Assembly: GCF_000063445.1 (NCBI RefSeq)
Contig: NC_009464.1
Span: 682,001-746,000, forward strand
DNA length: 64,000 nucleotides
Direction: 5' to 3'
From: Methanocella arvoryzae MRE50
GTDB lineage: Archaea; Halobacteriota; Methanocellia; Methanocellales; Methanocellaceae
Made by a program: the position numbers and the translations under genes
Shown here: positions 58 to 61,663 of the stretch, piece after piece
Layout: each line of letters starts with the position of its first letter
How positions within the stretch are numbered: the first letter of the stretch is position 1
Notes under the pieces: generated by a model
Seen by the model: only the letters and a program-made list of their open reading frames with translations
Told to the model about the DNA's origin: nothing
Databases searched by the model: none

Positions 58-690
58 TTAGGGCTCGATCACTGAATTGTTGATTATAGTGTAGCTGTGG
101 TGGTCGTAAATGTCATCTCCGGGCAGGAGATAGACTTTATTCTTGTAAGCAAACGGGTGGTAATGGTCAATAGCATAAATTCGATCGTCATATGGCATCA
201 TATAAACATGGTAACTATCGATACCATTTACAAGACCCCATACTTCTGGAGAGCTGTTTGGACCTATAATCTGGCGTATTTCGATAACAATACAGGCCAG
301 TTCTCGATATAATTCATCCACGTTATCAGGGTTTTTAATATTGACATCTATCTCAAAGCATATGAAACTATGATTGATAATACTATTTGGCCCAGATACT
401 TCATTAGTATGGACACCTATTAGGTCGACAACAGAATACTGCGACCAATTAAGATCACTAATAACATTATTATCTACAGGGGATATATCCGGATTAGTTG
501 TTGTATCATTATTAATTATCGCTATTGTAGAATTGACAGTGTGATTCTCAAAGTTGCTTGAAGTAGTATTATCATCTAAATTGGGATTCGTGGTTACAAT
601 CGTTGTATTAAAAAAACCGAGGGTATTTAATGATATTACAACAATGATAAGTAGGAAGATTGCAATTGTTATTACTTTAAAAAGTTTCAT
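58..690 (-). CDS. Secreted or membrane-anchored hypothetical protein, Asn/Thr-rich
   Basis: About 210 residues and not recognised as a family. Residues 1-27 form a Lys-plus-hydrophobic signal anchor (MKLFKVITIAIF and on). The next 60 residues are rich in N-x-S/T sequons, which suggests a glycosylated extracellular protein. An upstream in-frame ATG at 711 exists, but GGTGAT lies exactly three bases before the ATG at 690, so 690 is preferred; this also removes an overlap with the upstream gene, which ends at 701. The DNA is much more AT-rich than most of the window, like the surface-protein island at 52.8-55.1 kb, which may point to transfer. It probably shares a transcript with the pilin-like gene before it. 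Confidence 0.65.
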   Translation of the reverse strand: MKLFKVITIAIFLLIIVVISLNTLGFFNTTIVTTNPNLDDNTTSSNFENHTVNSTIAIINNDTTTNPDISPVDNNVISDLNWSQYSVVDLIGVHTNEVSGPNSIINHSFICFEIDVNIKNPDNVDELYRELACIVIEIRQIIGPNSSPEVWGLVNGIDSYHVYMMPYDDRIYAIDHYHPFAYKNKVYLLPGDDIYDHHSYTIINNSVIEP

Positions 691-700
691 ATCATCACCA

Positions 701-21916: not shown

Positions 21917-22435
21917 CTACATAAACCGCTCAAAGCGATCCTTACTGACCTTGCAGACCGGGCAAACGCCCGGAGGCTCTTCCCTGGCACACAGGTATCC
22001 GCAGACCTTACACCGCCATACCGGATACTTCAGAGAGACGCCAGCCCCGGGAGAGGCTGTTGCAGCCATGGCAGGGGTCACCGAGACTTCCCGGGGCTGC
22101 CTGCGCTCGGGCACCGGAGCCAGCTTCTTTAAGCCCTGGAAAACCTCATCGGAAACGTAGAGCCCGCAGTAGCAGGCGCTGAACTGGGCTAAGTCAGGGT
22201 CGCGGTAATCGCATGGACAGATGATGTCGAGGTCTTCCTCTCGCTGTCCCGTCGCCAGCCTGCACGGGCAGGCGATATAGCCATACCGGCCTTTATTGAT
22301 CAGCAGCCCCTTCACCAGTGCCCTGGTGAAATTCTGGTCAGGGTTCAGGCGATAGCCGCCCCTCTCAGCGTCCCGCAACAGCTGCTCGTGGAAGGCCCGG
22401 ACTTCGGAATCATCCGGTTCTATGTTGCCGGTCAG
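21917..22435 (-). CDS. Ferredoxin:disulfide reductase with rubredoxin domain
   Basis: About 172 residues. Residues 20-95 form an FTR catalytic-subunit domain: ACPCRLA, IICPCDYRD and SACYCGLY supply the Cys set for the 4Fe-4S cluster and redox disulfide. After a 30-residue linker a rubredoxin domain follows (YPVWRCKVCGYLC and PGVCPVCKVSKDRFERF). The same fusion is known as ferredoxin:disulfide reductase in Methanosarcina; it passes ferredoxin electrons to thioredoxin-like proteins. The first standard start in frame is TTG 22378, but sense FTR sequence (DSEVRAFHEQLLRDAE) continues upstream, and CTG 22435 overlaps the previous stop and follows GGGAGGTG, so CTG is proposed. Confidence 0.8.
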   Translation of the reverse strand: MTGNIEPDDSEVRAFHEQLLRDAERGGYRLNPDQNFTRALVKGLLINKGRYGYIACPCRLATGQREEDLDIICPCDYRDPDLAQFSACYCGLYVSDEVFQGLKKLAPVPERRQPREVSVTPAMAATASPGAGVSLKYPVWRCKVCGYLCAREEPPGVCPVCKVSKDRFERFM

Positions 22436-26600: not shown

Positions 26601-26769
26601 GGTAAGTTCTCCGGCTATTGTAAGTCTAAAATTAATATGAGTTGCATTAATATATAGAGCCTTCGGCTCTTGAAGGACAGGCGTTTAAGGTGCCTGCTGG
26701 CCATGCAATCTTCCAAAACACGCAAATGCTATAAACCATGACGTCTTTTCGTCTATTCGCGGTGATCAA

Positions 26770-38722: not shown

Positions 38723-38920
38723 ATCTGAATGACGAATATCCAAAAGTTACAGTAAAATCTCCCTGAATTCACCTGTGCTGCAACCAGCATATTTGCCCAT
38801 ATCTACCAAATATTCTGTAAGTATGGCCAAATAATTTTTTAATTAGAAATTTGTAACAAAACATATAAATTCGACAGCACCCAATCTTTGATCGTGTGGG
38901 GGTACTTCACAGGTGATACC

Positions 38921-60077: not shown

Positions 60078-61028
60078 ATGGACAAGCTTGCACTTGTCAC
60101 CAGAAACGTAGAAGAAGTGGTGACTATAGACGAACTGAAGAGCCTGATGGATGCCAACCCGCACCCGAAGGTCTACGTCGGCTATGAGCCCAGTGGCAAC
60201 ATCCACCTGGGTCACATGATTACTGTAAACAAGCTTATCGACTGCCAGAACGCAGGGTTCGAAGTGACCGTCCTGCTGGCAGATCTTCACGCCTATCTCA
60301 ACCGCAAGGGCACGATGGAGGAGATCGCAAAGATCGCCGAGTACAACAAGCGCTGCTTTATCGCCATGGGCCTTAGCGAGGACAGGACGAGGTTCGTGCT
60401 GGGCACGAGCTACCAGCTATCCCCGAAGTACGAGACGGATGTCCTGAGGCTGGCCTGCGACACTACCCTCAACAGGGCCCGCAGGAGCATGGACGAAGTA
60501 TCCAGGGACGCGGAAGACCCGAGAGTATCCCAGATGGTCTACCCGCTGATGCAGGCGCTGGACATCGCCTACCTCGACGTCGACGTGGCCATGGGCGGCA
60601 TCGACCAGCGCAAAATCCACATGCTGGCCAGAGAATCCCTCCCGTCGCTCGGGTACAAGAGCCCGATCTGCCTCCACACTCCGATCCTGCTCGGGCTGGA
60701 CGGCACCAAGATGTCGTCGAGCAAGGGTAACAACATCAGCGTGGACGAGCCGGCAGAGTCCGTGACGAAGAAGATCGAGAAGGCGTTCTGCCCCATCGGC
60801 GTCACCGAAAACAACCCGGTGCTGGACCTCTTCAGGTACCACATATTCATGAAGTACGACAGCATCACGATCGAGCGGCCCGAGAAACACGGCGGCAACA
60901 TTACCTTCGATAGCTATGAGGCACTTCGCAACGACTTTGCGGAGAAGAAGGTACACCCGATGGACCTCAAGAAGGCGGCAGCGAAGTACATGAACCAGAT
61001 ACTCGAGGCCGTCAGAAGCCGAATGTAA
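60078..61028 (+). CDS. tyrS: Tyrosyl-tRNA synthetase
   Basis: 316 residues, the short archaeal form. VYVGYEPSGNIHLGHMITVN holds the HIGH-like H-L-G-H; the KMSKS-like loop is LDGTKMSSSKGNNISVDE. Other conserved residues are in DLHAYLNRKG and MGGIDQRKIHMLARE. There is no separate C-terminal anticodon domain, as is usual in archaea. Own promoter (GATTTATAGCC, about 60034) and GTGGTG ribosome site. The aIF1A gene follows 71 bases later. Confidence 0.95.
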   Translation: MDKLALVTRNVEEVVTIDELKSLMDANPHPKVYVGYEPSGNIHLGHMITVNKLIDCQNAGFEVTVLLADLHAYLNRKGTMEEIAKIAEYNKRCFIAMGLSEDRTRFVLGTSYQLSPKYETDVLRLACDTTLNRARRSMDEVSRDAEDPRVSQMVYPLMQALDIAYLDVDVAMGGIDQRKIHMLARESLPSLGYKSPICLHTPILLGLDGTKMSSSKGNNISVDEPAESVTKKIEKAFCPIGVTENNPVLDLFRYHIFMKYDSITIERPEKHGGNITFDSYEALRNDFAEKKVHPMDLKKAAAKYMNQILEAVRSRM

Positions 61029-61099
61029 GGTATAATTAGACAAATTCATATATTAGCATCGCTTTAAAGCATCTAAATCGAAACAGAAGTGGTGATAAA

Positions 61100-61420
61100 C
61101 TGAACAGGCCAAACAGAAATGAGCCCACAGTTGGCGAAGGCGAGCAGTTTACCAGAGTCCGCACTCCTAACAAGAGGGATGGCGAACTCCTCGGCACCGT
61201 TACCAACATGCTGGGCGCTAACAGGGTCGTCGTCCACTGCACTGACGGCGTTACCAGAATGTGCCGGATACCGGGCAAGATCAAGAAGAGGATATGGATC
61301 CGCGAAGGCGACGTAGTCATCGTCGTACCCTGGGAATTCCAGAACGACAAGGCCGACGTAATCTGGCGGTATACTCAGCCCCAGGTCGACTGGCTGCAAA
61401 AGAAGGGCTTCCTGTCTTGA
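61100..61420 (+). CDS. Translation initiation factor aIF1A, CUG start proposed
   Basis: 106 residues if started at CTG 61100. Sequence: (M)[20 protein letters not shown], then [20 protein letters not shown] and the OB fold [56 protein letters not shown]. The conserved R-V-R-T-P block lies before the first ATG (61208), and no ATG, GTG or TTG occurs in frame between the stop at 61037 and 61208. GGTGAT stands exactly three bases before the CTG, the same geometry as several ATG/GTG genes here. aIF1A stabilises the initiation complex with aIF2 and mRNA. Confidence 0.88.
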
Positions 61421-61663
61421 GCCAGAGAAAGGATTGTAGTGATCAACTAAAAACAGTTTATCACCAAAACAAACCTTGTGAAAAAAGATCAACGGCATGG
61501 CGCCAGACATCCAAACAAAGGACGGCGCCAGCCAATACTCGTTTTCTAAGAAAAGCTCACGAGCATACCAGACCTTCGCTCTCAAGCCACAACGATAATA
61601 TTATACAGGTTGGGCTTAAAAGATATCTCGAATGAGGCCTGATCGTAGGCGACAGGGGCATTT
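61421..61663 (+). other. Spacer between aIF1A and the RQC-HRDC gene
   Basis: No gene seen; the sequence is A-rich. A short inverted repeat GGCGCCAG/GACGGCGCC-like (about 61499-61529) is present. Promoter-like elements are weak. Confidence 0.35.

Follow-up and report, generated by a model that had tools for sequence, protein, structure and literature searches.

The DNA analysed here (64,000 nucleotides of the Methanocella arvoryzae MRE50 chromosome, hereafter the window) carries on its forward strand a 106-codon coding sequence (61100-61420), delimited by direct reading, profile matches and coding constraint, which begins with CTG and ends with TGA (61418-61420). Upstream on the same strand lies an open reading frame (60078-61028, from the list of open reading frames) that we take, from sequence resemblance, to encode tyrosyl-tRNA synthetase (tyrS), and whose stop stands 71 nt before the CTG; the two appear to form an old gene pair. 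A possible TATA box, TTCATATATTA (61045-61055, forward strand), picked out by eye, could supply the downstream gene with a separate promoter and thereby a brief leader, and TTTCATATATTA is read upstream of the CTG in the orthologue of G001, one of three further Methanocellales genomes (G001-G003) compared here. The predicted fold of the leader (61070-61150) is no better than that of shuffled sequences (z -0.12).

The 106-codon frame matches the curated models of the archaeal initiation factor aIF1A (IF-1A) above every cut-off, scoring 168 bits (E=4e-50, cut-off 92) with NCBIfam NF003085, 143 bits (cut-off 103) with TIGR00523 and 87 bits (E=7e-25, cut-off 30) with the Pfam eIF-1a family PF01176. 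As aIF1A has a role in start-codon selection (PMC7531240), the gene shares with bacterial infC the property of encoding a factor involved in that choice. The genome holds four copies (G000:C1:743100, 1810880, 2720574 and 2934819), two of which start with CTG and two with TTG. Across the Methanocellales, all 12 copies in four genomes start with CTG or TTG, and G003 likewise has four copies.

The earlier note had proposed a CUG start for this gene from the letters of the window, and direct reading bears out its anatomy. Between the upstream in-frame stop (TAG, 61037-61039) and an ATG at 61208 the frame contains no ATG, GTG or TTG; its codons between that stop and the conserved core include ATT 61052, ATC 61058 and CTG 61100. 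The CTG (61100-61102) follows the Shine-Dalgarno (SD) motif GGTGAT (61091-61096, forward strand) after the 3-nt spacer AAA, and the corresponding anti-SD GGCTGGATCACCTCC occurs at three places in the genome. A pattern search of the window finds GGTGATNNNNTG at eight positions where 1.8 would be expected, a count of at least eight being reached in 0/100 shuffles. Among the eight are the sites of the three other genes cited in the note, at 688-699 (minus strand), at 26761 and at 38912. In 864 kb (725 genes) of the 3,179,916-bp single-contig genome, which served as background, the codons standing at the proper distance from a strong SD number ATG 28, GTG 3, TTG 3 and CTG 3; the three CTG cases comprise aIF1A, one other gene of the window with no standard start upstream, and one that is clearly internal. 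Two apparent weak starts in genes other than aIF1A were seen in this genome. On the minus strand at 22433-22435, a gene with ferredoxin:thioredoxin reductase and rubredoxin-like parts has an apparent CTG start behind GGGAGGTG, with a CTGA overlap with the stop of the upstream frame and no standard start upstream. At G000:C1:232406 (L278), a frame with a weak Prok-E2_E match and no standard start upstream has ATT directly behind GGAGGTGATCGC, a 10-nt SD match.

Comparison with relatives, the check that the note had suggested, gives good support to initiation at CUG 61100, whose use in vivo is deduced from sequence. CTG stands at this position in all four Methanocellales orthologues, with an unchanged GGTGAT and a varying spacer, and relatives outside the haloarchaea nearly all keep CTG or replace it with another weak codon. 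Coding constraint sets in at the called codon: among close relatives, differences at codon positions 1/2/3 number 59/67/209 after it, and 310/253/246, with no codon pattern, over an equal length before it. The ATG at 61208 is the first standard start in the frame, but it lies downstream of the RVRTP block, so that a protein beginning there would lack both this block and the N-terminal part of the Pfam/OB-fold domain, which extends from residue 28. The CTG itself was sequenced independently in three orthologues and in many relatives. Conservation and coding constraint thus rule out both a start at 61208 and a sequencing error, leaving these with a negligible probability. The first residue of a protein started at CUG is presumably methionine, carried by the initiator tRNA.

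The weak start extends far beyond this genome. Loci were taken from 100 genomes of the phylum Halobacteriota together with named records, and starts were read in 135 aIF1A copies, 125 non-haloarchaeal and 10 haloarchaeal, those of L066, L101, L113 and the haloarchaeal rows being assigned by inspection. The non-haloarchaeal starts are CTG 80, TTG 34, ATT 3 (L111, L117, L124), ATC 1 (L106), CTA 1 (L061), ATG 5 (L030, L110, L121, L126, L142), GTG 0 and unresolved 1, counts that are not independent since many copies are close kin. All ten haloarchaeal copies sampled start with ATG and, together with the five other ATG copies, indicate that the weak start is dispensable. One uncalled copy, L095, reads CAG where its relatives read CTG, behind the same SD, which may be a sequencing error or a lost start. 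No ATG, GTG or TTG precedes the conserved core in 54/125 aIF1A copies, against 0/90 control genes (aIF1, aIF6 and aIF5A from 30 of the same genomes), for which the start calls were ATG in 68/84. When starts were read from the SD register alone, ignoring the codon, 124 aIF1A copies yielded CTG 52, TTG 16, ATG 1 and GTG 0. In many loci an in-frame stop stands right before the SD, as in TGA GGT GAT AAA CTG of L003. A start that is neither AUG nor GUG, placed behind an SD as in infC, is kept across relatives. On a tree built from the protein core, a short alignment with many poorly resolved forks, 20 codon changes are placed, of which five are between a weak codon and ATG/GTG. Judged from these sequences, weakness rather than one given codon is what is kept, with CUG, UUG, AUU, AUC and CUA interchanging; the exchange of CTG and TTG is a transition and mutationally easy, which counts against the mechanism favoured below. 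L058 and L059 led to loci of another group, probably the Thermoplasmatota, in which starts are mixed, mostly ATG, with CTG or TTG behind GGTG in L236, L247, L252, L254, L256, L261 and L322. The open-access literature searched yielded no report of a weak start in archaeal aIF1A, which is not proof of absence.

The weak codons lie behind strong SDs. The median SD/anti-SD pairing energy is -9.4 kcal/mol for weak starts and -6.4 kcal/mol for control starts (p about 1e-10; p about 2e-7 at one copy per genome), a comparison that is partly circular because the start caller favours good SDs; in most loci there was one plausible start candidate only. Had the gene simply drifted towards a poor start, its SD ought to have been lost too. 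Where a weak codon stands behind a strong SD, the decision falls at the codon-anticodon step, and the near-universal presence of this layout in a large archaeal group suggests that a deliberately poor start controls aIF1A. In two of the ATG copies, L121 and L126, the SD is poor (about -3 kcal/mol), as though a better codon had been exchanged for a weaker SD.

Beyond the stop codon lies a further feature, noticed by looking and with no prior prediction. The 3'-UTR element CAGTTTATCACCA (61454-61466, forward strand), which could mask the SD and start, is the exact 13-nt complement of TGGTGATAAACTG (61090-61102), the segment holding the SD and start codon and its predicted partner; a pattern search finds it as an inverted second GGTGATAAACTG at 61454-61465, 33 nt past the aIF1A stop. 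As in the icaR type of control, the 3' UTR holds a motif that is complementary to the SD of its own gene. Support comes from the three other genomes and from its rank, this complementarity coming out on top when 13,515 candidate start sites were compared over 864 kb of the same genome. The element was found in 4/4 Methanocellales genomes, a basis of four genomes of one order, always at a distance of 11-33 nt from the stop. The exact match to the SD and start spans 13 nt here, 12 in G001 and 11 in G002; in G003 it spans 8 nt, with a G-U and additional pairs besides. When the complete predicted mRNAs of these four orthologues are folded, the SD-start segment is predicted to pair with the 3' UTR at mean probabilities of 1.00 (in the window gene), 1.00, 0.91 and 0.84; when the 3' UTR is left out, the segment is about half open. 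Downstream of the element, G001-G003 have T-rich tracts, which is consistent with its being transcribed. We infer that the element lies in the mRNA and pairs with the start. The element is absent from the eight other Methanocellales aIF1A copies, and it was rejected as a phylum-wide feature, no other aIF1A copy exceeding 8 exact nt of complementarity. L101 gives a gapped duplex (z -4.2).

Taken together, we favour, at a rough probability of 0.55, a mechanism in which the SD directs initiation at CUG, the start senses the balance of initiation factors, and a 3'-UTR layer is added in the Methanocellales. SD pairing would recruit the 30S subunit, and the initiation complex would then take or refuse the CUG, so that initiation on aIF1A mRNA would hinge on the tolerance of the complex for poor codon-anticodon pairing. 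This tolerance is set by aIF1, aIF1A and aIF2, and the mRNA would thereby read out the factor balance and keep aIF1A at the right level. If aIF1A acts mainly in stringency, the loop would be negative, as in infC; if it acts mainly in tRNA stability, the loop could be positive, or could track aIF1. In the Methanocellales copy linked to tyrS, the SD and CUG would stay masked for as long as their pairing with the 3' element is not opened. The likeness to infC on which the earlier note had built holds in its anatomy (strong SD, weak codon, initiation-factor gene), and the autoregulation of aIF1A that it had proposed is plausible. Its direction is a different matter: in Pyrococcus, aIF1 is reported to destabilise and proofread non-AUG complexes and aIF1A, opposing it, to stabilise the initiator tRNA when aIF1 is absent (PMC6237735), and since it is aIF1 rather than aIF1A that proofreads, feedback could run either way. 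Four aIF1A copies per genome also make a single feedback loop harder to picture. The more ambitious proposal that the whole phylum reads initiation stringency through a selected weak aIF1A start, to which the Methanocellales add a 3'-UTR lock on the SD and start, is put forward only tentatively.

Part of the same evidence can be read without sensing or feedback. The weak start may simply set aIF1A output low and constant relative to ribosomes, which would account for weakness being kept while CTG, TTG and ATT exchange freely, and which agrees with the poor SDs of two of the five ATG copies; such static tuning could be had more simply from a weak SD or promoter, yet the SDs are stronger than in controls (with the partial circularity mentioned above), and the 3' element would be left unexplained. 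We regard it as doubtful, if a serious possibility. Control might instead run across factors, with aIF1 proofreading the CUG complex and aIF1A synthesis following the aIF1/aIF1A ratio with no self-repression. The reported opposition of the two factors on non-AUG complexes (PMC6237735) would suit this arrangement, as would the fact that aIF1 itself mostly starts with ATG in these genomes. Sequence cannot tell such cross-control from the favoured mechanism, of which it is one version, and we consider it quite unlikely. It is a good deal less probable still that the aIF1A start depends on ribosomes arriving from the end of tyrS and, being coupled, tolerating a poor codon. The synthetase gene lies directly upstream in 38/135 loci (e.g. 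L005, L012, L019), with a 4-nt NTGA overlap (CTGA or TTGA) in 11 lineages, but 71 nt separate the two in the window, the 97/135 loci that have no upstream tyrS have weak starts all the same, and an ATGA overlap would serve coupling equally well. Most loci being unlinked, coupling to tyrS was dismissed as a general cause.

The 3' element also has a reading that dispenses with RNA pairing, namely that it is an inverted repeat to which a regulator binds at the DNA level, or that an antisense gene begins there. The two copies do form a perfect inverted repeat flanking the aIF1A gene, and GGTGATAAACTG on the minus strand resembles an SD followed by CTG. That minus-strand CTG is lost elsewhere, becoming CTT in G002 and CAG in G003, whereas the part shared among genomes is precisely what complements the SD and spacer, with pairing retained in G003 through a G-U. 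With the CTG of its frame varying, an antisense gene starting from 61465 was ruled out, and the DNA-level reading as a whole appears unlikely.

If the favoured mechanism is correct, stringency is sensed in all three domains of life through a poor start on the gene of an initiation factor, with a different factor in each (IF3, eIF1 and aIF1A) and the archaeal case independent. The setting of initiation-factor levels in archaea would then be directly testable with start-codon reporters, and the 3' element would extend 5'-3' UTR control to the archaea, for which a limited literature search found no example. A gene finder that recognises no start codons besides ATG, GTG and TTG will necessarily shorten or overlook the essential aIF1A gene in much of the phylum.

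Several components of this proposal are already known elsewhere, weak starts having been described in infC, in eIF1 (through context) and in chloroplast infA, and pairing of a 3' UTR with the SD in icaR. Bacterial infC has an AUU start, and the level of its product IF3 is under translational autocontrol. Changing this AUU to AUG abolishes autocontrol (Butler 1987, as cited in PMC9845219). Like aIF1A, infC encodes an initiation factor and has a poor start that is conserved behind an SD, and three aIF1A copies even use ATT; the differences are that aIF1A belongs to the IF1 line of descent rather than being an IF3-like fidelity factor, that its setting is an archaeon, that its codon is mostly CUG or UUG, and that its feedback is a proposal from sequence. 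Eukaryotic eIF1, autoregulated via a poor start context (Ivanov 2010, as cited in PMC6237735), is another initiation factor that possibly gauges the stringency of its own start, as proposed for aIF1A. There, an AUG in poor context is met by scanning, whereas in aIF1A the codon itself is weak and stands behind an SD. The Chlorella chloroplast infA, encoding IF1, belongs like aIF1A to the IF1 family and has a weak start codon, UUG, but it is an organelle gene reported from a single lineage, and we know of no survey of SD and weak codon for it. Replacing its UUG with AUG raises translation 300-fold (PMC9845219). For the 3' element, the closest parallel is icaR of Staphylococcus aureus, in which a 3'-UTR motif pairs with the SD region of its own mRNA and blocks initiation (PMC3868564). 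That is a bacterial regulator gene with a long 3' UTR and cleavage by RNase III, whereas the aIF1A element lies 11-33 nt from the stop, takes in the start codon as well in two species, and has a predicted function.
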